Below, piece after piece: positions 12,541 through 42,562 of a DNA stretch of 42,562 nucleotides (positions are counted from its first letter, which is position 1; the number at the start of each line of letters is the position of its first letter). Below the pieces are notes generated by a model that made no database searches, was not told the DNA's origin, and was given only the letters and a program-made list of their open reading frames with translations. The stretch comes from Chrysophaeum taylorii. Its lineage: Eukaryota; Sar; Pelagophyceae; Pelagomonadales; Pelagomonadaceae. The position numbers and the translations under genes are program-made. The stretch is taken from the NCBI GenBank assembly GCA_029834535.1, contig JAQMWT010000422.1, positions 1 to 42,562 of the forward strand, written 5' to 3'.

Positions 12541-12544
12541 TGTC

Positions 12545-22921: not shown

Positions 22922-23743
22922 ATGCCAACCAACCAAGAACTCCAAAAAGAGTTGGCCACTCAGAAGACCGAATATGCTCAAGCCATGAAAGACCAAGAAG
23001 CTCGCATAGAGGCAAAGCATCAAAGGGAGATGCTAGCGCAAAAACAAGACAACGATGCTCGCTTCCAAGCTCTCCAAGCACAACTCAACGCCATACTGCC
23101 ACCACCTACCGTCGCTGCTGCGGCTCCGCCTCCCACTCCGGCTCAACAAGATCCCAAGACTAAGGTTAACACCTTTAGTGACCCACCTAGCGCCGTCCGC
23201 AGGTCAATGGACAACGCGCAAGTCACACCCCAAATGCTTTCGTTTCGCGTCATGCAGTTGTTCGTCAAACATCTGATGCCTGAAACAGGCATAACTCAAT
23301 ACTTTCTACAGGGCTTCTACACGTGGGACTCCGTCCAGCGCGGATCTGATCTTGCTGACGCTCTCCTAAGCCACTGTACCGACGAATACGACAAGGACCC
23401 CGACCACAACGCTACATCAGGGAACACACTCGATTTCCAAGGCCGTTACGTCTACCACAAGGGTGTCTACTGCAAGTTCGGCAAGCACTTCCTGGAGAAC
23501 GTCTACGAGCCCAAGCTCCAAGAACTTAAAGACAAAGACAAGGACCTGACCGATACGGCACAAGGAAAGATGTCCGATCACCCAACCTCACCTCCAAGGA
23601 AAAGAAGCCGACTTCATCGTGTACCTCCGCGAGACCGTGCACCCCCTGCACCCCCTTTCGCCGTTTCCTGCATGCCGGTAGCGATTCCGTCAAGCGCCCA
23701 GCGTACGACGAAATTGACGCACTCGGATCTTCCCATCCGATAG
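22922..23743 (+). CDS. copia-2 Gag, N-terminal part
   Basis: The start is chosen at ATG 22922 because the frame upstream runs through the putative LTR. Residues 1-60 (NQELQKELATQKTEYAQAMK and on) form a strong charged coiled coil, followed by an Ala/Pro linker. A compact domain comes next with TPQMLSFRVMQLFVKH and FLQGFYTWDSVQRG, which is capsid-like in composition. The reading leaves the Gag frame near 23570 through one or more frameshifts, and the remaining codons to 23743 are probably out of frame. No zinc knuckle is seen. Confidence 0.65.
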   Translation: MPTNQELQKELATQKTEYAQAMKDQEARIEAKHQREMLAQKQDNDARFQALQAQLNAILPPPTVAAAAPPPTPAQQDPKTKVNTFSDPPSAVRRSMDNAQVTPQMLSFRVMQLFVKHLMPETGITQYFLQGFYTWDSVQRGSDLADALLSHCTDEYDKDPDHNATSGNTLDFQGRYVYHKGVYCKFGKHFLENVYEPKLQELKDKDKDLTDTAQGKMSDHPTSPPRKRSRLHRVPPRDRAPPAPPFAVSCMPVAIPSSAQRTTKLTHSDLPIR

Positions 23744-23754
23744 GACTCGAATTT

Positions 23755-24759
23755 GTGCTCCAAGTTCGCCTAGCACTTGACAAGCACACGGGCCAGAACA
23801 ACATCCACCATGCGCATTGTGTATATAGGGCCTTTCTGGACACGCCGTTCAACCCGGAGATACATGAGCCTGCTCACTGCATTGACCACATGCGTCATGT
23901 ACAGCAGCAACTGCGCCAGATCACTAGCGACTCCTCTCTCCAACTCTCCGATGATAAGATCCTCAAAGAAATACACCAAATCCTCCGGTTCAAGTACCCC
24001 CCAAGTTTACTCGACTCCCGCGACCCATCGCACGTCAAGGGCTTCACGCGTCTTGCCAATTGCCTGCGCACCCAAAACGACTCCTTGCTACTCGACGAAG
24101 ACAAGGAAGCGATAAACCATCTTCCCAAGGTCATCGCCCGGATTACCGTCATCTCCACCTTCGAGCGCAACTTTTGGGCTCACCTCAAGCCTCACCCAAC
24201 TCCAAATTTCAAGCCGTTGCGATTCGTCACTGACTTTGGTCGTCTGCCGACTAAGGACAAAGACATCCTCCGTTTTCGCTCACGCCGTCATGGTCTCCAC
24301 CTCACCGAAGACGATGATGACACCTCTCCCTCTGAAGATGACACCCCTCCGGATCCCAATGAAGACACCGACCCCGTCGCTGTTTTTCTCACGGAGGCCA
24401 ACCTTGATCAAGATGAAGACAATGACCTCATCCACCAACTCCACGCCTACCGCAAAAAGCTAATTTCGCGGCACCCCAAGAAACCCCCCCCTAACAAAAA
24501 AAGCCTCCCAATTCTCGCTCCCCGTCTTACTACGACATCAATGACAGTCCTAAGCCCAAGGCCACCCCTGTCACCCCAACGAAGAACAAGCAACATCCCC
24601 GTGCTACTCCTGTCACCCCTGACAAACGCGAGCACCCGCACCTTCGCAAGGTCACCTTTCCCACTCAACCGCATCCACCCAAACCATCTACTCCTGACCA
24701 ACGCTCCAAGGTCCCTCTTCGTGAAGTTCGCCGCAAGCTCCAAACCATGCGCAATCTAA
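23755..24759 (+). CDS. copia-2 Gag, continuation
   Basis: The frame reads as protein from about 23650 (upstream of the first listed codon) to about 24480: LDKHTGQNNIHHAHCVYRAF, DKILKEIHQILRFKYPPSLL, then an Asp/Glu-rich stretch (HLTEDDDDTSPSEDD). After about 24480 it becomes Pro/Thr-rich and less convincing, and the acidic protein continues in the next ORF. It is the structural protein of the particle, broken by frameshifts. Confidence 0.55.
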   Translation: MLQVRLALDKHTGQNNIHHAHCVYRAFLDTPFNPEIHEPAHCIDHMRHVQQQLRQITSDSSLQLSDDKILKEIHQILRFKYPPSLLDSRDPSHVKGFTRLANCLRTQNDSLLLDEDKEAINHLPKVIARITVISTFERNFWAHLKPHPTPNFKPLRFVTDFGRLPTKDKDILRFRSRRHGLHLTEDDDDTSPSEDDTPPDPNEDTDPVAVFLTEANLDQDEDNDLIHQLHAYRKKLISRHPKKPPPNKKSLPILAPRLTTTSMTVLSPRPPLSPQRRTSNIPVLLLSPLTNASTRTFARSPFPLNRIHPNHLLLTNAPRSLFVKFAASSKPCAI

Positions 24760-25103
24760 GCCAAGCCGGTCGCCCGCACACGTCAAGATCCGAACGCATG
24801 ACCAAGCTCATCAACCTCATCACCTCCATCTCCGATGAGATACTTCTCTCTGAAGCTGATTCTGAAGCCGCCGAATTTCTCCAGATGTTGTCGTCCGATC
24901 CCCAGGACGATCCACCTGGTGAGGGCGAAGCCGATAAACAAGGTGAAAGAGGACACCTCGGTTTCTATGACGACCACGGTCGGCTATACCTCTACGACGA
25001 CACCATTCCCGAAATCAATGATGAAGATGACTCCGCCGATGATTACGCACAACGTCACAGTGACTACATGCGTGCTCTCCATGAGAGTCAGCTTTTTCGC
25101 TGA
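24747..25103 (+). CDS. copia-2 Gag/protease linker
   Basis: The frame reads MTKLINLITSISDEILLSEA, then an acidic region with GHLGFYDDHGRLYLYDD, ending at TGA 25101-25103 immediately before the protease frame. I see no named domain. It continues the acidic Gag tail in another frame. Confidence 0.45.
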   Translation: MRNLSQAGRPHTSRSERMTKLINLITSISDEILLSEADSEAAEFLQMLSSDPQDDPPGEGEADKQGERGHLGFYDDHGRLYLYDDTIPEINDEDDSADDYAQRHSDYMRALHESQLFR

Positions 25104-25552
25104 TGGTTGCCGACGACGCCTGTGCCGCCAACCACATCTTACTCAACCAGGTACCAAGCCTCACGATGACGAATTTCCCGACATCATCAACCATCTCACC
25201 CAGAGTCGCAGATTTTCTTTGTGCAACTTACACTCCAGGAAAGACCTCAAAGAAGACTAACCCGCTGCATGGGTGCAATGGACCCGGAACTGAAACTTCA
25301 TTGATTGACGGTTGCGCATCCTTTTGCTTTACGCGCACAATTCGACACTTTGTTCCCGAGTCCACACGCCGGATTCCCGAACACACCATTCATATGGGAC
25401 GAGGCACCCTTACCAGCCACTTCATCCGTGTTAAACCGTTGTATTTGCAGGCTGTAGGTCTCCCTCAAAGGATACAAAAGACTCAACCGGTTACGCTTTA
25501 TATCTCGTCTTTATGGTCGTCCCGCAATTCAGGAAAGGTCTCCAAGTTCTAG
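25103..25552 (+). CDS. copia-2 aspartic protease
   Basis: The motif SLIDGCASFCFT (near 25300-25335) stands where copia proteases have the catalytic DSGAS. The following FVPESTRRIPEHTIHMGRGT fits the usual pattern up to the G-x-G strand. Asp is kept, but Ser-Gly is changed to Gly-Cys, so activity is doubtful. The protease would process the polyprotein into Gag, DNMT, integrase and RT-RNase H. The N-terminal 60 codons are linker. Confidence 0.6.
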   Translation: MVADDACAANHILLNQVPSLTMTNFPTSSTISPRVADFLCATYTPGKTSKKTNPLHGCNGPGTETSLIDGCASFCFTRTIRHFVPESTRRIPEHTIHMGRGTLTSHFIRVKPLYLQAVGLPQRIQKTQPVTLYISSLWSSRNSGKVSKF

Positions 25553-25985
25553 CGACATCTCAGCTCAAAGCTCAGCATGTACAAGCCACCGATCCGCCAC
25601 TGCCCCACGAGCCCTGTCTGTGCGAACTTATGAAATCCTCAACCGCCGATCCGCACGACTACAAGACTCTTCTAGGAAAAAACGCCGTGGTGCTCGCCAC
25701 TCGCAAACCTAACGGCCTGTTGTCCCTGCCGTCCCATCCAAAGCAAAGATTTACAACTGTGCTTAGTTTCCACACAAGAACACGCATGTCACTCAAGGAT
25801 GAGATTGCACACATCACACAGCATGTCGCCAAGACACGCTCTACATCGCACACGCTTGATTTCGCCAAGCTACAAAATCATTCCCTGTTTTCAACTGAAC
25901 TGCTCAACCTCCCACATACTGTCGTCCAATACGTGTTCACTGGCTCCGCGGACCTCTCTGTGCAAGCACAACCCCCTCCGCTCAG

Positions 25986-27560
25986 AACAGCCATTATGCA
26001 GGTGGACTTCACCAAGAAGGTTTCGACACTTTTCGCAATCGATTCGACAAACGCCTTACTGTCGTGGTCACCAGCGAAATCAACCATATTATGCGCACCC
26101 GTGCGCAACAACTCTTTCCGCACGCTCATCACTATGCGGACCTAAGAAAGGTAAATGCCGCACTCCAAACCGGCAAAATACGACTACCTCCATTAGACTT
26201 GGCAGTTTTCACATTGCCCCGTCAACATCTAATTGTAATGCAAGAATACGACGGCTACGCCACTCCGGTCACCGCCGACCTTTTTGTCCAAGAACAAATC
26301 CGCTTTGTTCGTTGCACGCTCCCGACCTACGCCATTGTCGAGAACGTACCTCCCAACCCCCGAACTCATCACGAGTATGCTCAACTCGCAAAAGGCTATC
26401 CGCGCTTAGGCTACTTCCGACACTCCGGTGTTTACAATGCCTCTGCTTTTGGTGACGTCATCAGCACGACACGCTATCTCGCTGTGTATGCCCGACACCC
26501 GCTCACCTGCTACAACCTCGAGAAAACCGCTTCTCCTTGGTTAACCTCGCCTCCGAGCATGGTTCCTCTCCTGGACCCCAGTCACACCATCCCTGACGAT
26601 CTCTGGATCGCCAACCCCGCCATTCGTGGTACAGTGCCCCGCTCCAACTTGGACTACTACCAGCACAAGGCCACCTACTCCTACAAGCCCGCCAACGCCT
26701 CGAAACTCTCGATTCCCGAAAACGCACGCATCTGCCAAGTGCTTGCCCGCTTCACCAAGCCCTTCGCGGATCTAGGTCTCGACGCCAACGGCACTCCCTA
26801 CGCCGCCATGACCCATATCTCCCATCTTCTGGTTTTCACATTACTGCACAATCACTTGTCGCAACACCTCACTCTCGCCGCTTGGAACACTATCCGCTGT
26901 TTTCATACCTCAGAGTCCCAATGTGCTTACCATTTGGATGGAGCCATCACCGGCACCGCCGCTACTGCCGTCGCATGTGGCTACTTCCCGCGCGCCTCCC
27001 TCGCCCTCCATTCCAGCCCCCCTCAGATATTGGACTGTTCCCATCAACCCGCAGTCTTCTCCCAACCTACGCTTTTTCCCTGGATGTTCCCAAGGGCACC
27101 GCCTTTCTGGTTGTCGCCTACACCACCTCATTGGCCGCCACTCACAGCTGCACGCGCCCCTCCACGTGGGTTCACTACATGAATCGGCTTTGCTGCGATC
27201 GCCTCACGAGGGCGAATTACTCTCGATGACCCCACTGGACTCATAATGTCCAAAGCCCGCCCCACCTATGCGGACTATGTCGGCCACATCGGCAACACGC
27301 TTCAGCAAAGCACCAAGTGCTACTCGGTCACTGGCTCGTACCCAACAAATACAAGTTACTCCAACGCCTTGCTGCTGATCTCCCCATACCAAATCCGCTA
27401 TGCGACCCTGAACGAAATCGCAAAATTTGGACACCACTCGGACCCGGAATTGCTTCGGCTCTTCCAACAGCACCCGCCGTACTTCGCGTTCAAGGCACTG
27501 GCCAGCGCCATCCCGCACCACATACTGCAGGCAAAGTACAGCGCTGTCCTCGCACTCCAC
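25986..27560 (+). CDS. copia-2 C5-cytosine DNA methyltransferase domain
   Basis: One frame runs through here with a single in-frame TGA (27180-27182). A motif I-like YAGGLHQEGF (near 25995) is followed by motif II VVVTSEINH (26061-26087) and motif III LFPHAHHYADL. Motif IV is DLAVFTLPRQ, where canonical enzymes have PPCQ, so the catalytic Cys is replaced by Arg (CGT, 26220-26222). Motif VI IVENVP is intact (ENV 26340-26348). Motif VIII is YNASAFGDVISTTRYLAV (26436 on). After a long target-recognition region come motif IX IRYATLNEIAKF (near 27391) and motif X ALASAIPHHILQAKYSAVL (from 27496). The same segments occur in copia-1. The domain lies between protease and integrase. It would methylate cytosine C5 from S-adenosylmethionine, but this copy looks catalytically dead. 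Confidence 0.82.
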
Positions 27561-29331
27561 GAATCACACCATCACGTGAACCTTCACATCGAATGGGCAA
27601 CGATGCGCCATGGCATCCCCAGCCCCGGAGACATCAACCAGGTTGCAGAATTCTTCTTGAACATCCCCAGCCGTCTCTTAGCAGAGGAGGACCTCAACCT
27701 CACCTCCCTCTTCAATGCTGCTGCAGATGCTCACCATGATGCGATCCGCAAGCCACGCAAATCGAAAAACCTCGAGACACTTCTTGCCGAGGCAACCCTT
27801 GCCAAAGTCCGAGTTGACAAGCGACCCAGCCCCCCTAGCGCGTCGACCGCCGCACTGCCCCCCTTGCACAAGCCCGGCACCAGTCAGCACGCTAAAAAAG
27901 TGCTTTTGGTCACTCGCTGGCACCGCATCCATCATCAGCAACCCGAGATTCTTCGCCGCACGAATGCCGCTAATGTAACGAATCTCCGCCCAGGTGATGA
28001 TCGGTAACTGCAAGACTGCAGCGAATGCAATCGCTGTCAATCGCATGTCAGCTTCCGTCACAAGAGCACTTCCTGGTCACAGGATGAACTAGCCTATGCT
28101 TCTGGCCAACATCTCCATATGGATGTCTCATACCCGAGCATCAACAAATGCTATGGTGGCTTTCGTTACATCATGCATTTTGTGTGTGTTATCTCGGCAC
28201 ACAAATGGGTATGCTTCCTGAGGAAACTAGACGCGCAGGACGTTCTGGCTGGCATCCTCTACGTGGTCAATGTGATTAAGGTCGAATTCGATGTAAGTGT
28301 GAAAATCATCTCATCTGATGCCTTTTCCACTTTCCGCTCCGAAGCTTTTCATCCGCTCAAGGTGCAACTCGGTATCCAGTTTCAAATCATTGGTCGCCAC
28401 CTCCACCAGCGGAACTTCGCGGACAACATCATGAAGGAAAACACCCGAGGCACTGTACTTCGCCTCCTCAACCCTCGCAGTGTACGCATCGAAGGAAAGT
28501 CTATTGCCGCCGAGTATTATCACCCATTTGCTCTAACTAACTAACGTCAGACCTCTCCCGAGCATGGGAGCCAGGCCGGACCGGCAGGAGCCGGTACGGA
28601 ATCGCAGAGGAAAACCACGCAGTTGGGGCAGGGCGACGGACGAGGACAGACATGTTGATGGTGGACCGCCACTGCGCGCGGTCTTGTGCGAGGTCGTGCA
28701 AAAGCGTCGCTGGCCGCGGACGTGTTGGTCCACGAACAATCGACCTGTCCGTCGCGTTCTGCCCAACCGAGCGAACCCCATCCCAGCGCGGACTTTCCGG
28801 GTGCTAACCGGCCAGCCCGGGAGGCGAGCAGGCACCGTCTCACTCCGGGACGGCCGGGGCCGCCGCAGGGAGCAAGCGTGTTAGGCGCCGTCCTCCGTCG
28901 CAACCAACGGTTAGCGGTCGTTTGCTCTACTGCATAAGATCCAAGCCGACAACCAGCGCTCTCATGGAGTGCCCTCGCGCACAAACATGGCATGCACCGT
29001 TCCCCGGCGCATCATGTCACCCATAGTACCGCTCTTGAAGCTCCTTCCCTTTGGTGAACCTGTCACTTTTGTCTACCCTCAATGTCACAAGCTGGAACCC
29101 TCCAGCGTTACCGCCTCTTACTTTCATAGTAACAACTATCTCCCGAACCTCCCCGGCACGGACCGATTTATCCGTGATGTTCACAGCTCTATCCTGCTTG
29201 TACATCAGGGGCGATATGGAAAAATCGTCTCCTCTAACGACTTTCACGTTGACGCAGACATGCCAGTCAACCGCAACAGGGAGATCGAACGGATCAGAGC
29301 ACTTGCACAGATCCCAACAGAGGCATGGTAA
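27561..29331 (+). pseudogene. copia-2 integrase, split by a SINE-like insertion
   Basis: After a Pro-rich linker the HHCC finger reads RWHRIHH and, past an in-frame TAA (28005-28007), CSECNRC. The core has Asp in HMDVSYPS (near 28117) and Asp in SSDAF (near 28315). The third position reads NFADN where copia-1 has NFEVE, so the catalytic Glu appears replaced by Asn. The frame is interrupted at EYYHPFAL by the insertion at 28536-28920. The insertion plus one duplication is 394 bp, which exactly accounts for the frame change on the other side, where the C-terminal part resumes at 28930 and runs to TAA 29329-29331. Confidence 0.82.
28536..28920 (-). mobile_element. SINE-like element with TTAG tail, copy 5
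   Basis: It lies on the minus strand with tail CTAACTAACGTCAGACC at the left, then the family 3' end (CTCCCGAGCATGGGAGCC), a divergent middle, and the core and head (CTAACCGGCC, GGGAGGCGAGCAGG) at the right. Perfect 9-bp repeats TTTGCTCTA at 28527-28535 and 28921-28929 flank it. Confidence 0.82.
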
Positions 29332-29364
29332 GAGGACCCGCTACCAGCTATAATCGAACAGCAG

Positions 29365-30090
29365 ATGCCTGAAGTTAGACAGGAATCGCAAAATGAGGGC
29401 GAGACTCACGATGACGAGCAGAATGATAAACCTAACGATGACGACGAACACAAAGAACCGGATCCAACTCCCGCTGCTGATGCAAGTCCCGTCAGCGACG
29501 AGACACCTGAACAGGATTTTCCGTTCGTCAACCGGCCACCCCCGCCGGATGGTAGCATTCCGATGCCCAAACGAAACGATCGTCTAGAGGTTGTTCTCGA
29601 TGATTCAGGTTTTACTCCAGTTCTCGTGCATCGCAACCAAAGCGACAAATTCAAAGCAGATCTCAAGGACGAGCGCGGATTTCGCATCCCTAAGGATTAG
29701 CTCTATAGTGTGAAACGTGTCGACCATGGAAAACTCTTCACCAGACGCATTATCGCCTCAGAGTATGGTCGCAACTGGAAATACCAGCAGGAACAATCCA
29801 CGGCTCACGCCACAGCCAACATGTTCAGCACATGGATGTTCCTCATCAGTGTCAGCGCTCTGCACCAGGGCCACGCCGCCAGCATCGCATCTGATCTCAA
29901 CATTCGAAGAGATGCTAAGCCGCCAAATGAAGTCCAGAAAGGATGTCTCCTAGCAAGTACCACACAAGACTATGGTATCATGGGCGGCACCGCACTGGAT
30001 TTGCAGAGAGAACCCGACGCATAACTCTTGTACGTTGACTTCCCAAGGAAGCCGTATCACTCATCTGTATTGGTTGACCACCTCGACAAC
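29365..30090 (+). CDS. copia-2 acidic linker and pre-RT region
   Basis: The frame is the same as that of the integrase C terminus and is crossed by in-frame TAG (29698-29700) and TAA (30022-30024). The first part is very acidic (DDEQNDKPNDDDEHKEPDPT). The second is basic to neutral (KRVDHGKLFTRRIIASEYGR) and leads to the RT. In copia-1 the integrase-RT joint also carries a low-complexity linker. A change to the RT frame follows near 30095. Confidence 0.55.
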
Positions 30091-30110
30091 GACAATCGCT
30101 CGAGAACTAT

Positions 30111-31184
30111 GTGTGCCACGACGAACTGTCACCGGCAGAGTATTATGCGCGCCAATGGAACCAAGAATTCTGTTGTATGGGTTCCTCTCTTTTGTGGGAC
30201 ATCTCAGCGCATCAGCACTGCCACTTAGCTTCTCGTCACAGGCATGGCTTAATGCATGATTCTGGCGAACTCGGACACCTCTTTCTAAGTCAGAGTGATC
30301 CGAATCAAGATATTCTCCGAGAAGTCATGGACTATGACTTGCAGCACATCGATCACGTCGTGTTACAACTCGTGACTGCTGAAGCTATTGTCTATGAGCC
30401 TGAGAAGATTGTCGAACTCAAAGGACTCAGCGACGAAGATAAGTTGAAGCATATCGCTTCGATTCGCAAAGAAATCGAAGGCTTATGCTCCAACGGTGTC
30501 TTTAAGCTTGAACCTTTACCGTCAGACCGTTCGTCTATCTCGACGAAACTCGTGCTGAAGATCAAGTATTTTGCTGACGGCACTCCAGACCGCTATAAAG
30601 CTCGTATAGTCGCCCGTGGTTTCTTGGCACGTGTTGGCATTGACTTTTGTGCCACATCATCCCCTACCGCAATGCTCGCCACCAACCGGCTACTGCTCGC
30701 CATCGCCGTGAAGCACAAGCTCCCGGTCGCGCACGCGGACATTCCTCGGGCATTCATCCAATCGGCACTCGATCGCCCAGTATGGATCGACTTCCCTCGT
30801 GGAATACGTGTCTCGCAAAATCTTATTCATCAGATACAGAAGAACCATCCAGAGTCGAAGCTCGCTCTCCGACTCGTCAAGGCTCTCTATGGCCTCAAAC
30901 AGTCAGCTTTGTTGTGGAACATCAAACTCTACTCGTTTCGACAACATGAGTTCGAACGCTCACAAGTCGACACTTGCCTCTATATCAATTGGGGTCGATC
31001 TATCAACAAATGGGCTATACTATCCGTTTCAGTCGATGACCTATTGATCACTGGTACCAACACTGCCGAAATTACATCTATTCGCACTGCTCTGGAGATG
31101 GCAAAGGTACGTGGCATGACAACATCCGATCCTTCCTTGGTATCGATGTCCACTACAATGTCTCCGCTGGTCATCTCACTATGA
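30111..31184 (+). CDS. copia-2 reverse transcriptase
   Basis: This is an RVT_2-type polymerase. The leading segment (DKLKHIASIRKEIEGLCSNG) is followed by LVLKIKYFADG...YKARIVARGF, HADIPRAFIQS (first catalytic Asp), ALYGLKQSALLW and SVSVDDLLITG (the catalytic pair). The frame is left near 31105 by a one-base change, since the next frame continues SFLGIDVHYNV. The last roughly 25 codons here are out of frame. Confidence 0.92.
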   Translation: MCHDELSPAEYYARQWNQEFCCMGSSLLWDISAHQHCHLASRHRHGLMHDSGELGHLFLSQSDPNQDILREVMDYDLQHIDHVVLQLVTAEAIVYEPEKIVELKGLSDEDKLKHIASIRKEIEGLCSNGVFKLEPLPSDRSSISTKLVLKIKYFADGTPDRYKARIVARGFLARVGIDFCATSSPTAMLATNRLLLAIAVKHKLPVAHADIPRAFIQSALDRPVWIDFPRGIRVSQNLIHQIQKNHPESKLALRLVKALYGLKQSALLWNIKLYSFRQHEFERSQVDTCLYINWGRSINKWAILSVSVDDLLITGTNTAEITSIRTALEMAKVRGMTTSDPSLVSMSTTMSPLVISL

Positions 31185-32182
31185 ATGTAGCAGCGAAGAT
31201 CACCAAGATGCTTGCTGAGCATAAGCTCGACGTACATAGTATGGACGTCCCCTATTCGGACATCCTCATTCAAAAACCTTCTGCTAAACTTCTCTCAGAC
31301 TTGGCTCCTACCTTAGACGTATTACGCCAAAATTTCCCTCACTACTGTGGCACTAGTACTTACCTGTCTGTCACATGTCGGCCTGATATCACCACTTTGT
31401 GCAACAAATGCCGCAAGGGCATGCACAACCCTGATCAGACCCACCATCTGCACTTATATGTTTTACTTCGCTACTTAAAGGGTATTCCTAATGATTCACT
31501 CGACTATTCATCCGACAGCCCCTCTATTACCCCCATTATTCAGCATCTGATCAGCCGTTATTCTGAGCTGCATCACCTTCGTTCACCCATTATTTGTTTT
31601 ACTGATGTAAGTTTCGCTGACCGTTCTGACCCTCGCTTGCGATCCAACTCTGGTGCATGTATCTTCGTCTTTGGCAATCACGTATTTTGGTCTAGCAAAC
31701 GCCAAACTCTTACTGCCAAAAGCACCATGGTAGCTGAACTCGTCGCCGCCAGCGCAGCCGACGATGAATGTCAATGGTTCTACAAGCTTTTCTCCTCTCA
31801 CCCTTATCTGTTTTCGTTTGATCAAGCTCACGCTATTCCGCTGCTTATTGACAACGCTAGCGCATTACATGTCGCTAATCATCCTAAAGTCAGTGCTCCT
31901 TCTCGTCATATCAATTTACGGGAATTTCGCATTCGCGACTACCAAGCCAATTCGATCATTAGACCTCTCTGGTGTCCTACTCACTACCAGGTCGCTGATC
32001 ATTTTTCGAAGCTCCTACCACGCAATTTATTTCACAAGTTCAAAAACGCCTACGGTGTTCACTCAACCTCCTCTTCACCGCCATCTCATCAAGTTACTCT
32101 TTCAGCTACGCTTCCACCGTACGACTCTGTCCAGGACACTCACTGTGCTCTTGTCGATGGCAAGACGCTGCCTTACTACTAA
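31181..32182 (+). CDS. copia-2 RT C terminus and RNase H
   Basis: The frame reads back to about 31105 before the first ATG. It contains the RT thumb region (YLSVTCRPDITTLCNKCRKG), then RNase H with CFTDVSFADRSD, a Glu in TMVAELVAAS, and an Asp in LLIDNASALHVA. HVADHF-type residues (QVADHFSKLL) mark the C terminus. The ORF ends within the start of the Helitron border (ACTACTAATCGACAG at 32176), so the last two or three codons belong to the insertion. Confidence 0.9.
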   Translation: MNVAAKITKMLAEHKLDVHSMDVPYSDILIQKPSAKLLSDLAPTLDVLRQNFPHYCGTSTYLSVTCRPDITTLCNKCRKGMHNPDQTHHLHLYVLLRYLKGIPNDSLDYSSDSPSITPIIQHLISRYSELHHLRSPIICFTDVSFADRSDPRLRSNSGACIFVFGNHVFWSSKRQTLTAKSTMVAELVAASAADDECQWFYKLFSSHPYLFSFDQAHAIPLLIDNASALHVANHPKVSAPSRHINLREFRIRDYQANSIIRPLWCPTHYQVADHFSKLLPRNLFHKFKNAYGVHSTSSSPPSHQVTLSATLPPYDSVQDTHCALVDGKTLPYY

Positions 32183-33470
32183 TCGACAGATGTTTGTCTG
32201 TTTGTCTGTTTGTTTGTTTGTCTTTAGATGTCGACTGCTAAGAGGGGGGTGTGTGTGGGGAGCATGGAGGATGTGGGTGGGTTTGTGGGGTAGGAGGGAT
32301 GTGCCGGACGTTTGTTTGTCTTTAAATGTCGACTGCTAAGAGGGGGGTGTGTGTGGGGAGCATGAAGGATGTGGGTGGGTTTGTGGGGTAGGAGGGATGT
32401 GCCTGACGGGCGGAGATAAGTACGCGGGACCGTTTGTTTGTCTTTAAATGTCGACTGCTAAGAGGGGGGTGTGTGTGGGGAGCGCCGTTTGTTTGTCCCC
32501 CGATTCAGGGTAAGGATCAGGTAGGCCCGCGAGCCAGGCATTGATCCTCCAAGCCGTCTACGGCGACCTCGCAGACTATTTCCACGACCCGCGGCGACTC
32601 TTTCAGCGCGCCATTCTCACGCCCCGTCGAAACGATGTTGTCGATGCTGAAAACGCGCGCATGACCGCGGCCTTTTTTTCTCGGAGACGAGGCGTCGGAG
32701 TTCTTTTCGGCAGACTAGCTTGGGTCGGAAGACGACGCCTCGCTCTTTACAGTCGAATTTTCGACTCCATGACAACCAACGGCATGCTGACTTTGATCGC
32801 GAGCTTAAAGTCTTCGCAACCTCGACCCGTCGCACGGCCACTGCAACGGTACCAGATACATGATCGATCATGTCGTGTAACCGAGGCTCCTCCAACCTGT
32901 ATCCCTTAAGGCCCGCCGACGCCAAACGATCAACAAGAGCCAGGGCCAGACGCCCCGCGAGGTCGGCGTCCTCTTGCCCAAGCCCGTCTTCTGTCACGTC
33001 CAGCTCTACGTGGCTCTCTGTCGATCGGCAACCCCGAGGATATGCTCTTCTGAGTCGACGACTCCACCCTACCCCACACGTGCTGCGCAATACCGACAAG
33101 CCCCCTCCCGGCGTCTACACGCGCACTGTAAGTGAGCTTACTGGGACCAGGTGAACTTACTGGGGTTTGAGATTGGGACTAGGTGAACTGAGTGGCCAGG
33201 TGAGCTTACTGGGACCAGACGAACTTACGGAGGGTTTTAGAGCAAACTCGAAGGTCAGCGGCGTGTGCGGATCAAGGCAGCTTAGATTGGCGGAGGCGAG
33301 AGCGACGAGCTCGAAGGAGTGGGTGTGAGCACGAGTGGGTTTACGCCGAACTTACTGGGGTTAGAGATTTGGACTAGGTGAACTTACTGACCAGGTGAAC
33401 TTACTGGGACCAGGGGAACTTACTGGGGTTAGAGATTGGGACTAGGTGAACTTACTGGCCTGCACTTGTC
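32175..33470 (+). mobile_element. Helitron helicase remnant D
   Basis: It starts with the ACTACTAATCGACAGATG border and TTTGTCTG units. Three direct copies of a GTTTGTTTGTCTTTA...CTGCTAAGAGGGGGG block follow (32211, 32310, 32432). Then come the helicase C-terminal segments (ILTPRRNDVVDAENARM near 32615, [31 protein letters not shown]) and the GTGAACTTACTGG tail. It lies between the copia-2 RNase H end and the 3' LTR-like repeat, so it probably inserted into copia-2. Confidence 0.75.
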
Positions 33471-33523
33471 CTGCTTAGTTTGATCCAGATTTCGCTCGCC
33501 GAGGTCAATCTGTGAGGGCGTAG

Positions 33524-33714
33524 AGATAGAAAATCTGAATTAGGGTTAGTACCCCCTACTCTAGGGTTAGTTTCCTTAACTTTACCACCTTTTGATTTCA
33601 GAAAACACTGTGTTATTCACACCGGCTGTTCTCGTTGTAGAGACAGAAACGAGAGCAGACTGCCACTGCTCTCGACTCTGCTGAAGGGTAACACAGTTCA
33701 AATTGCAGTTCTCT
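33524..33714 (+). repeat. Putative 3' LTR (partial) of copia-2
   Basis: It matches 22597-22835 from AGATAGAAAATC to GTTCTCT, without the internal duplication of that copy. A purine-rich GAGGGCGTAGAGATAGAAAA precedes it and could be the polypurine tract. It is cut off at 33714, where the tail of Helitron remnant E begins. Confidence 0.7.
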
Positions 33715-33721
33715 AACATCT

Positions 33722-34745
<1,024 letters not shown>

Positions 34746-34887
34746 GAGTGGTACTGACGGCGCGCGTACGCTTGGTCGCGCGATGGCGCGGCGCCCAGAG
34801 TACTAAGAGGGCCGCTCGCGTGTCGATGTGACCATGGTCTCCGTGCCGAACGCGTGGCGCCAGGGCGCAACCCGTGCTACGGAAATT

Positions 34888-35935: not shown

Positions 35936-36441
35936 TTCGAAAGTTGCGGTTTAGCTATGCACACAAGCCTTTTCCCAGTCCGACTTCGTCGCCTTCACAC
36001 AAAACTTTGAACCCGCGGCCTCCGGCGGCCACGTCGCCTGCTTCTTTCCCTTCTCATAACCCTAACAAGGCAGCTGTAGTGGTTTTCTCAGACACCCGCC
36101 CCTCTTGGCCGGGCCAGAGGCCTCAACAACCCTTTCTCCCAACCCGAACCGCGGGTGAAACCACCACACACCCGATCTCAGCGTAACACTCACGCCATCT
36201 CACAATCGGACAATCAAAAATGAGGGTAATAGCAAGACGACAGCAAGAAAGCAACACAAATGCCTGGTATATTGGGATCGGTGGAAGCGCAGGCGAGGGT
36301 GTCAAGATGACACCCTCCCCCATAATTGCAAGGTCAGTACAAGGGCAACAATCAGGGTAAGTCAGGCGGCAGGCAGGCAAGTGGGGGAATGGGCGTTACT
36401 GCCACAGGAGCCCCCTACTTGAGATGAAGTCGTCCTCGACT
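35936..36441 (-). other. Putative 3' LTR region of the gypsy element
   Basis: No gene is seen. On the minus strand a purine run GGGGGAGGG is directly followed by TGTCATCTTGACACCC, a plausible polypurine tract and LTR start at 36312. An alternative is GTAGGGGGCTCC followed by TGTGGCAG near 36404. The LTR end and the matching 5' LTR are not identified. Confidence 0.4.
36295..36317. repeat. Perfect 10-bp hairpin at the putative LTR start
   Basis: GAGGGTGTCA (36295-36304) and TGACACCCTC (36308-36317) form a perfect stem with a 3-nt loop. It overlaps the putative LTR start of the gypsy element. Confidence 0.8.
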
Positions 36442-36805
36442 TCAAGGGTGACGAAGGTCACGCTCACGAATGGTACGATAAGCTCGGTCAGCTACATCAG
36501 CCGGAACTTTGTTGCTGTGGAGGCCGAAGTTACTGACGAGGACGTCGATTTCATCCGGGCGAACATCAGTCACACAGGGTTCACAGCCCTCCATGTTTGG
36601 TCGTAGGCGTGTGAAGTTACATCCGTCGGGGTCCTTGTATTCTGGTCTAAAGCATCGCTCGGCCAGGGGCTTAGTAGGATCAAAAACACGAGGATCATCG
36701 CGCGGTCCCAAATCGGTATAGTAGTGAAGCGCAACGATATCATTGTCGTGGTCATATTCTTCGTTGACTTCGGCAACGTAGATACGCTTCTTCCACGCGT
36801 TGGAT
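36442..36805 (-). CDS. gypsy Pol C-terminal domain
   Basis: After the integrase stop at 36812 another frame reads SNAWKKRIYVAEVNEEYDHD, then DIVALHYYTDLGPRDDPRVF and a charged tail with RPDEIDVLV, ending at TGA 36442-36444. It looks like a folded domain attached to integrase. Many gypsy elements have a chromodomain here, and the YVAEV...VALHYY pattern could be a chromo- or Tudor-like fold, but I cannot assign it. A frameshift near 36805 separates it from integrase. Confidence 0.45.
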
Positions 36806-36811
36806 CGTCCT

Positions 36812-37636
36812 TTAACCCTGAATCACGAACTTGCCATGTTTGGAACGATCGCGGTCTGAAGGTAAATGCAGAGGGGCTGAAGAAGTGTCGATGGTTGGCA
36901 CTTTCAAAGGCACAATCTGTTGTACAGATACTACAACCGACTCAGCATCATCGTCGTTGACGTCCTGAATTTCGCAAACGACGGGAGAGATCTTTCTGTT
37001 AAATATGTAAGGCCCACGCCAAATGGGCCGTAGCCTCTGGCGCGTCATAGGCACGAAACGCCGACCATAATCACCAGGGGGAAACTGGATGTCAATTTGG
37101 TGGGCATCATAGTTGAGTTTTTGGCTCTCCTGTGCTTTTTGGCGAGCTCGTGTAACGAGTCGACTATAAAGTTCAAACTTGTTCTTAAAGTCCACCAAAA
37201 TCTGATGACGTGATTGCGGTAGATCACGCTGTTCACTCAAAAGATTGCAATCGGGTGGTAACAGGGGTTGCTTGCCAGTACGCATCATGAAAGGTGAAAT
37301 CTTCGTTCCCGGAATGTTCATCCTATTGTACATGAATGCCACATATGGGAGGAAATTCGACCAATCTGGCTGACGCTGTTCATCGATCGCAGCTCGCAAG
37401 AAGGCTTTGATGAATCGGTTGACACGCTCAGTATGATTACTCCGAGGGTGATACGGAAGGGTAGTACGATAACGTACGTTGAATTGACGAACAAACGTGC
37501 GAAATAACCTGTTCGCGAACTCATTTCCATTATCCGTGACTATGCACCGTGGGAGACATCCCTCAAGTAAAATCTTGTCCACAAACGCGTTCAAAATTGA
37601 ATAATCATGCTTGGTGTTGATCAGAGCCAACGTCAA
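36812..37636 (-). CDS. gypsy integrase, catalytic core and C terminus
   Basis: The core continues from the upstream ORF across a single TAG. It has CIVTDNGNEF (second Asp) and YHPRSNHTERVNRFIKAFLR (the catalytic Glu). The first Asp (DMIGPL) is in the preceding ORF. The C-terminal part with RRFVPMTRQRLRPIWRGPYI is the GPY/F-type module (GPYIF). All three catalytic residues are kept. Confidence 0.92.
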   Translation of the reverse strand: MTLALINTKHDYSILNAFVDKILLEGCLPRCIVTDNGNEFANRLFRTFVRQFNVRYRTTLPYHPRSNHTERVNRFIKAFLRAAIDEQRQPDWSNFLPYVAFMYNRMNIPGTKISPFMMRTGKQPLLPPDCNLLSEQRDLPQSRHQILVDFKNKFELYSRLVTRARQKAQESQKLNYDAHQIDIQFPPGDYGRRFVPMTRQRLRPIWRGPYIFNRKISPVVCEIQDVNDDDAESVVVSVQQIVPLKVPTIDTSSAPLHLPSDRDRSKHGKFVIQG

Positions 37637-37654
37637 GAAACGGGACGCTGCATC

Positions 37655-38284
37655 CTACATCGCGAGTATGGACGTGTACAGGTCAGCACCTCGCAGAGGT
37701 CCAATCATATCCATACCTAGGACATTGCAATCTCCGACGCGATTCGGTCGACAGAGCAAGCCATGACGCTTGGGCATGGTGGATCGAATCTTCTGGCAAA
37801 TAATGCGAGCATTGATGAACTCATTAACTGACGATGAGACGTTTGGCCACCAATGCCGCTCTAAGATTTGATTCGCTGTGGAGTCTCGTCCTACATGGCC
37901 TCCGAACAATCCTCGGTGATGCATGGCGATTACACGCTTTCGCATAGACGGAGGGACCACAATAAGACGTTGAGAATCCGAGTCATCGACCTTATACAAC
38001 ACGTTGTTATCAACTTCATACGGTACGGATGACTGCTCGTCTTGATCTTTCTGTTCAGAATCGAGATTTCGTCTGATTCGCTTGCATGTGTCATCTTCAG
38101 CTTGTTCTTTCGCTATCTCATCGAGAGTGATCTCATCCTCCGCTTGATCCGCAAAAGGAAGACGTTCGACGGAGTCAACTGGCTCAGACTCGTACGAGAA
38201 TTGAGGTGGTAGTATGTTCTGTCGCGTACTAGCTGCTGCCACAGCTGCGGTGGGTCCGCTGCCCGTCGGTATAGGCATCGTCAC
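37655..38284 (-). CDS. gypsy integrase zinc finger and start of core
   Basis: The H2C2 region reads HHRGLFGGHVGRDSTANQIL, then WWP, then NARIICQK. The first Cys of the usual C-x2-C pair appears to be Arg. The core begins with GDCNVLGMDMIGPLRGADLY (first catalytic Asp). The frame is the same as the next ORF, from which one TAG (37655-37657) separates it. The N-terminal third is a linker after RNase H. Confidence 0.88.
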   Translation of the reverse strand: MTMPIPTGSGPTAAVAAASTRQNILPPQFSYESEPVDSVERLPFADQAEDEITLDEIAKEQAEDDTCKRIRRNLDSEQKDQDEQSSVPYEVDNNVLYKVDDSDSQRLIVVPPSMRKRVIAMHHRGLFGGHVGRDSTANQILERHWWPNVSSSVNEFINARIICQKIRSTMPKRHGLLCRPNRVGDCNVLGMDMIGPLRGADLYTSILAM

Positions 38285-38329
38285 CGAAGAGAAGGTAAAA
38301 CAGGCTGTGTCAGGTACATCGGTGGGGAT

Positions 38330-38800
38330 TTATTGGAAGATCAAATAAACTTCATTGATCGGATCCCAGTCTTCGTCTTTCTCGATCAACTGTTCGATAG
38401 GGTTGCGCGACAGACAATCCGGGATGCGCATGCCAGGGGAATTTCCAGGCTTGTATCCGAGCTCCCGGTCGAACGCAGCAAGCCGCATAGGCCATCGCGC
38501 TAATTGTCCAGACGTATGGTTTGAATCCCGAAGAAATGTCAAATTACGATGATCCGGCTCTAGTTTCGTCTGATGTCCTTCGATGTAAAATCGGAAATTC
38601 TCAAGAACGGAGAGTACTGCGAGGAGTTCCAAGCGCCGAGGATCATACTTCCTCATCGACTTAGGCACGGTTCGACTCCAGTACTCAATAACTCTCTCTT
38701 CTATTCTTTCTCTTCCATCGTCGTCAACGACTGGTACTTTTTGAAATAGGTAAGCACCCAACCCATGCGCGGAAGCATCAGTTCGAATGTAGAAAGGCAA
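38330..38800 (-). CDS. gypsy RNase H
   Basis: The reading is in phase with the RT ORF before it and the integrase ORF after it. It shows YIRTDASAHGLGAYLFQ (Asp), DPRRLELLAVLSVLENFRFY (Glu) and LEPDHRNLTFL, and ends with the tether CLSRNP. It degrades the RNA strand of the RNA-DNA hybrid during cDNA synthesis. A TAA at 38330-38332 separates it from integrase. Confidence 0.9.
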   Translation of the reverse strand: MPFYIRTDASAHGLGAYLFQKVPVVDDDGRERIEERVIEYWSRTVPKSMRKYDPRRLELLAVLSVLENFRFYIEGHQTKLEPDHRNLTFLRDSNHTSGQLARWPMRLAAFDRELGYKPGNSPGMRIPDCLSRNPIEQLIEKDEDWDPINEVYLIFQ

Positions 38801-38869
38801 CGAGTAGTCAGGATGGTAGACACCCCTCGAAGTGGCAATAGCCTCGATGATGGCATCCCAAGCTTCCTG

Positions 38870-39421
38870 TCACTCTTTCGTCCATTCGAATTTTACGTCC
38901 GGCAACGTCAGTTGTCTTAATGGCTCTGCAACCTTCGCAAAATTCCTTACATAACGCCGGCAAAAACTCCCCATTCCAAGGAAAGACCGCATTTGCTTCT
39001 TAGGGTCAGCATCCGACAAAGTGCCAGGAATTGGCATGTGTCTGATGGCATATAAAGACCTCGGTGATGGAAGCAGTCCGTTCGGGGTGGACAAATTACC
39101 CAAAAACTAAATGACTCCTTGCATGAAGTGGAACTTCTTGATCTTGGCGCTGTATCCTTTCAAGGCGAGATGGGGAATAACTTGCACAAGGCACTGCAAG
39201 TGATTCTTTGTATCCGCGTAACCGGCGAGAATATCGTCGATGTATGCCACGAGATCGCGATATAGCCATTTCGACAAGTCAGTGTTTAACTGCTTACAAA
39301 ACAAACTTCCGGCTGGTTTGACTCCCAAAGGTAGACGCATGTAGCTGTACGCACCCAGAGGACTAGTGAAGGTTACCACATCTTGTGCATCTAGCGACAA
39401 TCGTAATTGTGATAGCCCCAA
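38870..39421 (-). CDS. gypsy reverse transcriptase, palm and thumb
   Basis: Two ORFs in the same frame (39421-39107 and 39103-38870) are separated by one TAG at 39107-39109. The first holds the fingers/palm part with FTSPLGAYSYMRLPLGVKPA and the catalytic AYIDDILAGY. The second holds the connection with MRSFLGMGSFCRRYVRNFAK and ends before RNase H at a TGA. RT copies the element RNA into DNA. Confidence 0.92.
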
Positions 39422-40236
39422 CGAATATCCAAGCTGGAACGACCTAACTTGTCGATGAGAGACATCAACGCGTCCGCCATACTCACACTCGGCCAGCTAT
39501 CATCCTTGAGCAATGCATCGAGGCGCCGCAGGTCGACAGCTGCCCTGTAAGCATTGGAAGTGCCAGGCTCAGCACCTTTCTTAGGCAACATCAAAATAGG
39601 GAAACCCCATGGAGAATTCGCGGGACGAATAACTCCGTCTCGGGTCCATTCTTCAATCTGCATCCGCAAGCATTCGATCTTTTCCTTCGACAACCGATAT
39701 GGCGAGAGTTTGATGGGAGTCGGGTTCTCTTCTTTGAACCGGAGCGTCACTTCAGGCGAAACAACAGGTCTCATCACATCATCGAAAAATGCCCACGAAT
39801 GCGAGATTAGATGTTTCATTGTCAGCTTCTCGTCATCATCTAAAGCAGGATGCTCTGTAATACCCAATTCAGCCATCACCTCTTCGACCTGCGCGACGGT
39901 CGGAGGGATGACCGGCATGCTCTCCTGATCCGCCAAATGAGGAGGCATCACCGGCAAAGGCTGACCATGCTCGTCGCGAGGCTCGTCCGCCCACGGAACA
40001 TCGTACTTATTGAAATACGCCGGTCGCTCCTTCGCGGTGCCTTCTTCTTCGGCGGTTGCGGAGGGTTGGTTGTTAGTTGGGTTGCTCTGCATAGTCGCAG
40101 TGGCGACGGTGCCCCCTGCAAAAGATTGAGCCGTCCCAGCCGATGTAACCAAAGATGGTGGCGGGGTGGTCGCGGCAGCAGCGGATGGTGCAGGACTCGC
40201 AGGAGAGTAGGGTTCATCGGGCGAAATCCATGACAC
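39391..40236 (-). CDS. gypsy Pol N terminus: linker and start of RT
   Basis: The first 90 codons are a Ser/Pro/Ala-rich linker. The following part contains SPYRLSKEKIECLRMQIEEW, SPWGFPILMLPKKGA, YRAAVDLRRLDALLKDDSWP and the first catalytic Asp in LDIRWGYH. There the frame passes to the next ORF near 39400 by a small indel. The ORF is in phase with the upstream Gag-DNMT frame, with a TGA and a TAA between (40240-40365). No protease motif is visible. Confidence 0.9.
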   Translation of the reverse strand: MSWISPDEPYSPASPAPSAAAATTPPPSLVTSAGTAQSFAGGTVATATMQSNPTNNQPSATAEEEGTAKERPAYFNKYDVPWADEPRDEHGQPLPVMPPHLADQESMPVIPPTVAQVEEVMAELGITEHPALDDDEKLTMKHLISHSWAFFDDVMRPVVSPEVTLRFKEENPTPIKLSPYRLSKEKIECLRMQIEEWTRDGVIRPANSPWGFPILMLPKKGAEPGTSNAYRAAVDLRRLDALLKDDSWPSVSMADALMSLIDKLGRSSLDIRWGYHNYDCR

Positions 40237-40362
40237 ACTTCGAGTGGCAGGGTCGAGCGTTGGAATGCGCGACTCGACAGCCGAGGGTGAAAATGGTGAT
40301 CGGGTTGTGCTATCGTTGTCGTCGCAATATTCCGCAACTTACCCAAATTTCGAAGTGAAGGA

Positions 40363-40599
40363 TCAAACGAATTGTGCACTGCTAGCGCGATCCGCGTCAT
40401 ATTCGCGGGTGGCACCATACCATTGCCACGTAGCTGGAATGGTCATAATTTCCTGGTGCATCTGCGACGTAAGTGGGCGGGTGTGCAAGAAATGATTTCC
40501 CATTTGTAGTTTGTTGCGCGTCACTGTGAAGGCAGGGCCGATAGCCGGGCGCGTAGATGAGAAACTGTTCACTATAATGAGCGGGTGACCACCCGCAAA
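40363..40599 (-). CDS. gypsy DNMT, end of target domain and motif IX
   Basis: This continues the Gag-DNMT frame directly after its TGA at 40600-40602. It reads PAFTVTRNKLQMGN, a typical end of a target-recognition domain, and then RPLTSQMHQEIMTIPATW, which matches motif IX. In another frame the same DNA next encodes GNGMVPPANMTRIA (near 40391-40432), an excellent motif X. A small frameshift or deletion near 40432 therefore separates IX and X. Confidence 0.78.
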   Translation of the reverse strand, partial: FAGGHPLIIVNSFSSTRPAIGPAFTVTRNKLQMGNHFLHTRPLTSQMHQEIMTIPATWQWYGATREYDADRASSAQFV

Positions 40600-42417
40600 T
40601 CACAACGCTAGCCCAAAACGGTCCCGTAAATTCGGTGGTACACGCGACAATAACGGCAGTTCAATGCGAGCATTGCAAGCAAATAGGCGCGTGCGCGAGC
40701 ACAGTAGTTCTGGTGTAATACTATTAAAATCGACAATGCGCGGCACATCAAATTTGTGATGCACAAAAGGGATCACTGATGGTTGCTGCTCGAGCGTCCA
40801 TCGTCCAATTACATAAGGTGCATTGCGGAAATGCCGTAGGACCCAGGAAGTACTAGTAGCGCCCTTGCGTGCGTCCCTGTAGTGCAAATTGGCAGTCGAC
40901 CCATAGATACACGGCGGACTTGCGTGAAAATAAGAATGCTTCCAAAAATCTGAATGTAAATACGACAACACCAAGTCGTATGTACGACGATGAGATTCCC
41001 CGGACTCGTGCAAAACATAGGGGATCTTCGGAAAATTGAGCACAAAGGTGGCTCGGGCTTGGGGACAAGCATCCAAAGCCATGACAGTGCGAAATGAACT
41101 GCCATATAGTTCATTGCATCGCCGGATACCCAACGTTGATCCTCCAGCGCCAGCAAAATAGACGACGACAAAGGTGTAGGTGATGGGTATCCAAACCAAT
41201 GAGGCGTGCTTGGATAGCAGCTCCTTAGCAGTCGCTCCCATCTCCATTTCTGGTGTTTTTTTTTTTACTTCTTCATTTGGAGGTGGCTCGGGTGGAGGTC
41301 TGTCGCGCAAGACATCCTCCTCGACTTCATTCTCGTCAACAGCAGCCATGAGAGTCGCATGACAAACGTCCTCAGTGGCTTCTAGCTGCATGTTGACACA
41401 TCCTTCATGCGGCATGATCTCGCATTCCACCTTACGCTGCAACTGGACAAACCACGCGTTAGCCTCATCCTGGGTCTTGGTGATTTGCCCGGCGATAGGC
41501 GAAGACGTGATACGAGTCATACCAGCAATCCCCTTCTCGGTATTAAGTACCCCTTCTTCGTTGCGAGGACGCGCTGAACCGGGGTCCGTATGATGCTGCG
41601 GGGTAGGCTTCGGTCGACTTCGCGGTGGCCGATCATCGGTCAGTGCCGATACAGCGTCATCCTCTTCGGGCGTAACACGCGTGGCAACCGGAGAGGCTGG
41701 CCGTGCCTCTCGAGCATTCGTCCGCGTGGATTCCTCCACCATTCGTCGAAGTCGATCGTTGTCGATCCGCTGCCGCTCCACTTCTGAGCGTTGTTGCCGC
41801 GCGTCGCGGCGGGCGTGCTCCATCTCACGTATGACTTGCTCGATCTGCGACTGGTACATCTCGAATCGTTCGGCGATGGTCTGCAGAACCTCGGGGTCGA
41901 TACCCACGCGAAAATCTGTCGCTCTCGTATTCGCGGATGGTGGTCTAGGAGGTGCACTCTCCTCTGGTCCACGCATCGCTGTAGTAAAGCCGGGGTCCGC
42001 TCGAGATGACTCCGTAGCATTCATCGCACGTTCGTAGGGTCGTGCGTACGGGAACGTCGGCTCACCCGGTCTTGAGGTTGCGTCTGGTGCAACCGTAGCT
42101 CCCCCTTCGCCGGCGCGTGGATCCGGAAGGATGACCACGCTTGGGGGGCTGTCGAGGCTATCAGATGATCTTTCCTCTCTTCTGATGCCGCTTTTTCCTC
42201 GGCTTCCGGCCGTTGAAAGGGCGTGCTGAACGGTGTTCTTCCAATGGACGTAAGTGGAGATGCCATACTGAATCGTTGCAGACGCTCCTGTGCGTCGCGA
42301 GACCATTGCGGTCGTTCTGTCATTTGCCTTTCTGCCATGACCGCGCTTTGCCCGGATAATAGGATTAATCCGAACGCTCACAACTCGCTTGTTGCAATCT
42401 TTTTCGTCAAACGACAA
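40600..42417 (-). CDS. gypsy Gag fused to C5-cytosine DNA methyltransferase
   Basis: The ORF has 605 codons and starts at TTG. Another frame from ATG 42338 (MAERQMTERPQWSRDAQERL) is a better Gag start and shifts into this one near 42170. Residues about 175-235 form a charged coiled coil. The DNMT occupies about residue 420 to the end: motif I VYFAGAGGSTLGIRR (near 41120-41165), motif II ALDACPQARATFVLNFP, motif IV ASPPCIYGSTAN with the catalytic Cys codon at 40909-40911, motif VI TLEQQP (usual LENVP; Glu codon 40789-40791) and motif VIII SRTRLF. Target domain, motif IX and motif X follow after the TGA. The enzyme class transfers a methyl group from S-adenosylmethionine to C5 of cytosine. All key catalytic residues I can place are present apart from Asn-Val of ENV. 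Confidence 0.88.
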   Translation of the reverse strand: MSFDEKDCNKRVVSVRINPIIRAKRGHGRKANDRTTAMVSRRTGASATIQYGISTYVHWKNTVQHALSTAGSRGKSGIRREERSSDSLDSPPSVVILPDPRAGEGGATVAPDATSRPGEPTFPYARPYERAMNATESSRADPGFTTAMRGPEESAPPRPPSANTRATDFRVGIDPEVLQTIAERFEMYQSQIEQVIREMEHARRDARQQRSEVERQRIDNDRLRRMVEESTRTNAREARPASPVATRVTPEEDDAVSALTDDRPPRSRPKPTPQHHTDPGSARPRNEEGVLNTEKGIAGMTRITSSPIAGQITKTQDEANAWFVQLQRKVECEIMPHEGCVNMQLEATEDVCHATLMAAVDENEVEEDVLRDRPPPEPPPNEEVKKKTPEMEMGATAKELLSKHASLVWIPITYTFVVVYFAGAGGSTLGIRRCNELYGSSFRTVMALDACPQARATFVLNFPKIPYVLHESGESHRRTYDLVLSYLHSDFWKHSYFHASPPCIYGSTANLHYRDARKGATSTSWVLRHFRNAPYVIGRWTLEQQPSVIPFVHHKFDVPRIVDFNSITPELLCSRTRLFACNARIELPLLSRVPPNLRDRFGLAL

Positions 42418-42562
42418 ATTGCCGGCAGCCGTCTGACTGCGCGCTGTACCGGTGCGCTGGACTTACGGTAGTTTTTGCCTTGCGTGTGAAGACTATGGAC
42501 GGCCTTCCCGTGCTGTCGCTCGCCGTCAGGGAGGTGGTCTGCCCTCGCGAGCTAGGTTAGGT
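42418..42562. other. 5' flank of the gypsy Gag, no feature recognised
   Basis: No LTR or primer-binding site is visible on the minus strand. The 5' LTR of the gypsy element, if it exists, lies beyond the window. Confidence 0.4.

Follow-up and report, generated by a model that had tools for sequence, protein, structure and literature searches.

In the pelagophyte Chrysophaeum taylorii, a Ty3/gypsy retrotransposon family carries a predicted cytosine-C5 DNA methyltransferase (DNMT) domain just before its reverse transcriptase (RT), as homology among its genomic copies confirms. The DNA analysed (the window) is an entire contig of 42,562 bases, and positions 36074-42562 of its minus strand hold the broken remains of a Ty3/gypsy element in which C5-methyltransferase motifs can be read. 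We consider it somewhat more probable than not that this is a decayed copy, shortened by an internal deletion, from a family whose DNMT would be made in Gag-Pol, packaged, and used to methylate the element's cDNA or insertion. The features of the element are as follows.

36074-36402, minus strand: putative 3' LTR of about 330 bp, 89.6% identical to the stretch preceding the Gag-Pol frame of a relative on contig C421
36812-37654, minus strand: integrase core (PF00665, E 8.3e-7, 29.6 bits against a cut-off of 32.6)
37655-38329, minus strand: integrase zinc-binding part, H2C2 (PF17921, E 1.4e-13)
38330-38869, minus strand: RNase H of Ty3/gypsy type (PF17917, E 4.4e-24)
39107-39496, minus strand: second part of RT with YIDD (PF00078, E 5.8e-7, 29.9 bits; cut-off 29.6)
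39391-40338, minus strand: linker plus the beginning of RT, in a frame of its own, without Pfam match, corresponding to the last part of the Gag-Pol frame of L043
40376-40427 (approximate bounds), minus strand: DNMT motif X (GNGMVPPANMTRIALAV) in a different frame, ORF 40442-39948
40363-40599, minus strand: part with DNMT motif IX (RPLTSQMHQEIMTIPATW), by frame reading in the frame of the 620-aa ORF beyond an in-frame TGA
40603-41289, minus strand: DNMT motifs I, II, IV, VI and VIII by motif reading (PF00145, E 0.013)
41417-41431, minus strand: internal-deletion junction, from blastn (about 2.6 kb, L043 1495-4094, absent) and the break-point sequences
41432-42462, minus strand: remnant of the Gag N terminus (coiled coil judged by eye only), matching residues 1-320 of the L043 frame in two pieces

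The minus strand has a 620-aa frame (42462-40603), after which RT, RNase H and integrase come in separate frames. The Pfam matches run RT (39496-39107), RNase H (38869-38330) and integrase (38329-36812), which is the Ty3/gypsy order, and the first-pass annotation was right in naming the element so. The integrase core is slightly below the Pfam cut-off in the window and above it, at 34 bits, in L043, a relative on contig C421. Is this copy still a working element? It has an internal deletion, an in-frame stop and several frame breaks; it is not autonomous, and the copy itself is dead. Its 5' leader and 5' LTR are missing because the contig ends at 42562.

Within the 620-aa frame the motifs FAGAGG (I), LDACPQAR (II), SPPC (IV), LEQQP (VI) and SRTRL (VIII) follow each other in order, labelled by what we take to be the motif names and expected residues of C5-methyltransferases. 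The putative catalytic Cys and the motif VI Glu are in place, as the motif reading had claimed (window: SPPC and LEQQP; relatives: SPPC and LEQEP). It had also put motifs I, II, IV, VI, VIII and IX into one frame and X into a neighbouring one. This is correct for I, II, IV, VI and VIII, and for X, which comes after a few bases near 40420 that L043 has and the window copy has lost; motif IX is in the frame of the others too, past the in-frame TGA at 40600-40602. Against PF00145, the 620-aa frame scores 14.6 bits (E 0.022) and a 229-aa DNMT piece reaches E 0.013, both below the curated 22-bit cut-off. The window gypsy DNMT is not among the at least 57 PF00145 matches found genome-wide (123 of 474 candidates scored), and it has no PDB match at E <= 10. 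Since Pfam sees the window copy weakly, the DNMT claim rests on its relatives in the same genome, such as L043, to which the window is 90% identical over DNMT residues 2-290. In the gypsy relatives the motif set stands unbroken in one frame, as had been expected of intact genomic copies, and PF00145 scores are above the curated cut-off, each with two matched stretches: 34.6 bits (E 1.8e-8) for L041, 34.1 bits (E 2.6e-8) for L020, and, for the DNMT domain alone, 38.6 bits (E 1.1e-9) for L043 and 38.4 bits (E 1.3e-9) for L045. The proposed PF00145 search thus leaves the window copy under the cut-off and places relatives clearly above it (38 bits, E about 1e-9), and a C5-methyltransferase domain upstream of RT is supported by window motifs and relatives together. 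The stop-cut copies L011 and L017 stay below the cut-off when scored piecewise. There is also a TIGR00675 (NCBIfam) match at 6e-5, under its curated cut-off and in the same superfamily.

Where does the domain sit in a fuller element? L043 has a single 1815-aa frame with Gag, a protease-like part, DNMT and the start of RT, then a frame break, and after it RT, RNase H and integrase. Its Gag matches Retrotrans_gag (PF03732) at E 0.085, below the cut-off; its Cys/His knuckle and protease-like stretch are assigned by eye, and the protease-like part matches no Pfam family. Contigs C345, C225 and C311 each have the PR-linker segment, the DNMT and RT in one frame, of 1812, 2129 and 2115 aa respectively. 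The PR-linker part of L043 has at least 102 genome matches (94 of 755 candidates scored), many ending directly at the DNMT; the window contig is absent among those listed. As predicted from these frames, the fuller gypsy copies read Gag-PR(like)-DNMT-RT-RH-IN, with the DNMT in Pol.

In the window copy the Gag core, the knuckle and the protease-like part are gone with the 2.6 kb; the deletion runs between two short stretches that resemble each other. The frame passes from the Gag remnant directly into the DNMT, and the first-pass annotation read this as a DNMT fused to Gag. Could the two natively be one protein? The same junction is found in 12 of 12 loci (L009-L020, window included), while L041 has a different deletion of its own. 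Further, short and long forms interleave in a DNMT-segment tree of 16 element copies (L019 was dropped for having fewer than 600 bases, and L041 was labelled long despite its own deletion), therefore the deletion recurred or spread by recombination. However, all 12 loci were fetched with the short protein as query, the short form has no Gag core, and the many PR-linker matches ending at the DNMT count against such a protein. We rejected the native fusion, which is almost certainly wrong: fuller copies have the PR-linker segment between Gag and DNMT, and the junction is an internal deletion.

The domain is also found beyond this family. A 242-aa RT query gave at least 150 matches (150 of 980 candidates scored). 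Of these, 102 are 77-100% identical to the query and the other 48 are 62-64% identical; homology identifies the latter group as a sister gypsy lineage with a homologous DNMT segment before RT. Its DNMT piece, taken from the start of L039, is 34% identical to the L043 DNMT over 168 aa (E 2e-31) and as a query gave at least 150 matches itself (150 of 816 candidates scored). Copies lacking the segment had been named in the first-pass annotation as evidence against the claim; the segment was found upstream, on the same strand, for at least 26 of the 48 sister RT matches listed, when these were compared with the 29 of 150 piece matches on the same contigs. The spacing between piece and RT is 742-759 bases in 25 of the 26 and 898 in one. 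Pfam run on the sister piece alone gave no recognition even at E 10, and the domain call for it rests on homology because the piece begins inside the domain, with motif I out of view. Compared with L043 it keeps the Cys of SPPC, the Glu of EQE and RxRL. On contig C5, uninterrupted sister frames of 3067 and 3063 aa run across DNMT piece and RT (523191-525176 and 547252-549234, minus strand).

In the searched genome of 70.8 Mb and 697 contigs, the 317-aa gypsy DNMT has at least 133 matches (125 of 914 candidates scored). At least 58 span 300 or more of the 317 aa, 31 of them without a stop; 66 of the 133 matches were tallied for length, and the remaining 67 are all shorter than 300 aa by eye. 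We calculated dN/dS for 12 gypsy copies (66 pairs), five of which (L010, L011, L012, L017 and L047) carry a stop. The ratio is 0.06-0.09 between nine C421-type copies and those of C225 and C311, where dS (1.36-1.71) approaches saturation. C421-type copies compared with one another give 0.13-0.40, apart from two pairs that differ at very few sites and give 0.64 and 0.75. The internally frameshifted L047 gave 0.20-0.58 and was left out of the selection reading. These ratios indicate purifying selection on the gypsy DNMT domain. The copies of C225 and C311 are separated by two substitutions in 921 bases, one silent and the other a replacement, and therefore moved recently.

What would an element do with such an enzyme? 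The DNMT would be made within Gag-Pol and enter the particle alongside RT and integrase. It may methylate cytosines in newly made cDNA of the element or in its fresh insertion, so that the methylated copy would resemble host DNA or gain a like protection, and host DNMT5 could then maintain the mark. Domain, place, conservation by selection and a large number of copies are seen across the predicted frames of the family, and we infer that the gypsy DNMT methylates the element's cDNA. Action on cDNA is favoured because the DNMT lies beside RT in Gag-Pol, is under selection, and has published counterparts in DIRS elements active in yeast. Do the copies bear traces of methylation? Element stretches have a CpG observed/expected ratio of 1.01-1.14, and two GC-richer host stretches reach 1.32 and 1.50. 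When 13 copies were set against L043, CpG transitions (rates 0.035-0.077) showed no excess over GpC transitions (0.037-0.072). TG+CA values of elements (1.09-1.29) exceed those of the two host stretches (0.59-0.91), a difference inseparable from the elements' lower GC. Since CpG observed/expected is about 1 and CpG and GpC transition rates are alike, the element copies give no clear indication of 5mC kept over a long time; young age or repair could explain this.

Two other readings bear on the activity of the domain. One is that it is catalytically dead, and retained in the polyprotein as a nucleic-acid- or SAM-binding spacer. Motif VI reads EQE or EQQ for ENV and motif IV is without the usual Gln, PCI replacing PCQ, both of which speak against activity; the Pfam match is modest (33-39 bits), and the copies are without a footprint. 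But the SPPC Cys and the motif VI Glu are invariant in five aligned gypsy copies and kept in the 34%-identical sister piece, and with strong purifying selection in addition we hold a dead domain to be quite improbable. The other reading is that the domain methylates RNA, either element RNA or the tRNA primer. Such a target is proposed for SymbioLINE DNMTs in the discussion of PMC5890265, and would agree with the missing CpG decay. By hhalign against 30 DNMT2-like proteins, a family of tRNA methyltransferases, motifs I-IV of the gypsy DNMT are in register (probability 88%, P 2.9e-6). The alignment is limited to motifs I-IV, however, which are common to all C5-methyltransferases; DNMT2-like proteins were the sole family so compared, with no DNA-acting family alongside; and phage DNA methyltransferase families matched too. 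An RNA target is therefore unlikely, though it deserves some weight, and methylation of the element's cDNA remains our preferred reading.

The similarity to phage enzymes raises the question of origin. The best PHROGs match of the gypsy DNMT is phrog_116, 'DNA methyltransferase' (2.8e-11 and 1.4e-11), a family of phage C5 methyltransferases that, unlike the domain here, are not retroelement-borne. Phage records gave one match, a C5-methyltransferase at 32% identity over 94 aa (E 0.05), and viral contigs gave 81 and 147 pattern matches, of which none was confirmed. This phage similarity is too weak to fix the origin of the gypsy DNMT. Protein searches found nothing at E <= 0.001 among 7997 candidates scored for the gypsy region and 4478 for the copia region described below. 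A PDB profile search with the gypsy DNMT gave no C5-methyltransferase and one unrelated chain (E 0.83), and that with the copia DNMT gave two C5-methyltransferases (E 0.067 and 0.079).

A second kind of element in this genome also carries a DNMT, one very different from that of the gypsy family. In L028 and L030, PF00145 and RVT_2 match within one frame, which marks them as Ty1/copia. Their DNMT has the motifs TLPCQ, ENV and KTRY and sits after an IDGGA-containing stretch without Pfam match. Because that stretch is called protease-like by eye, without Pfam support, the similar slot after the protease in gypsy and copia elements is suggestive only. In the genome search, the 55 PF00145 matches besides those on contigs C634 and C621 cover only profile positions 12-175, and a copia DNMT match was present in 18 of the 18 loci examined among them. 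Nine long stop-free domains from these loci (36 pairs) gave a median dN/dS of 0.20, with a range of 0.10-0.67. No common origin of gypsy and copia DNMTs was detected by hhalign (probability 0.1%, both profiles being very shallow), and the copia DNMT reached a probability of 11% against the DNMT2 profile. The two were probably captured separately; this is likely, not proven, because of the shallow profiles. In the window, a broken Ty1/copia element (23400-31282, plus strand) has a different DNMT of its own at 25786-27187, with Arg at the catalytic Cys position (PRQ for PCQ). Another copia element (2032-5840, plus strand) has integrase and RVT_2 matches, is 26-35% identical to the DNMT-bearing one, and gave no DNMT match.

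Which DNMTs does the host itself have? Among the PF00145 matches listed, where intron-split genes could be missed, DNMT2 and DNMT5 alone were recognised as host enzymes. DNMT2 is encoded on contig C634 as a stand-alone protein (PDB 1g55, E 3.9e-39). On contig C621, a DNMT with SNF2 matches PDB 7r76 at E 5.2e-131, a record named Rad8 and presumably the Cryptococcus Dnmt5. With so few host enzymes recognised and so many element copies, element DNMTs might mainly serve the host, through de novo methylation maintained by DNMT5 or through damping of the elements. But the element's own benefit explains selection within a mobile family, the copies are without a footprint, and intron-containing host genes could be missed with 123 of 474 PF00145 candidates scored; we find a host service very doubtful. 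A broader scenario is that gypsy and copia elements captured their DNMTs separately into the same slot after the protease, and that these hundreds of copies would be the cell's only de novo DNMTs, with DNMT5 as maintainer. As a whole this appears improbable, and we keep to an enzyme acting on the element's own cDNA.

The rare retroelements with DNMTs are on record in dinoflagellates and a charophyte (PMC5890265), as the first-pass annotation had stated. According to that paper, two DIRS-borne DNMT domains of SymbioDIRS-Dnmt3 methylated CG in yeast, while the charophyte gypsy DNMT was inactive there, a result its authors term inconclusive. The closest system is KnitGypsy-Dnmt3 of Klebsormidium nitens (same paper), which like the family here is an LTR gypsy element with a C5-methyltransferase in the Pol frame, many intronless copies and purifying selection. 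The Klebsormidium DNMT groups with DNMT3, and its host is a charophyte, not a stramenopile. The Symbiodinium elements SymbioDIRS-Dnmt3 and SymbioLINE-Dnmt (PMC5890265) also bring DNMTs in very many copies per genome, but they are DIRS (tyrosine recombinase) and LINE elements with other DNMT groups, whereas here LTR gypsy and copia elements are involved. A copia-borne DNMT3 would resemble the second C. taylorii family; PMC12344493 mentions it in a single sentence, for streptophytes and dinoflagellates, and attributes it to a 2018 paper, PMC5890265, which describes gypsy, DIRS and LINE elements. DAM- and DCM-encoding Ty3/Gypsy and DIRS elements are reported from groups including Stramenopiles in a passage of PMC6338049; the two enzymes are not distinguished in it, and an earlier stramenopile case is therefore possible. 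In the published C. taylorii paper no word starts with 'transpos', and no report of pelagophyte elements with DNMTs was found in the open-licence literature. The suggested novelty thus stands, within the literature found, for a pelagophyte gypsy lineage with a DNMT before RT. If true, a stramenopile alga joins the two groups with described retroelement DNMTs, and gypsy and copia elements of one 71-Mb genome both carry DNMTs at an apparently similar place in Pol. Since no host DNMTs other than DNMT2 and DNMT5 were recognised and the alga can be grown in culture, a role on element cDNA could be tested against one in the host methylome.

The window further contains repeat copies of about 0.8-1.0 kb at 10136-13657 and 32432-34479, 89-97% identical and in both orientations. 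A long simple repeat at about 34575-34757, reading RQTDRQTD in one frame, adjoins this repeat cluster.
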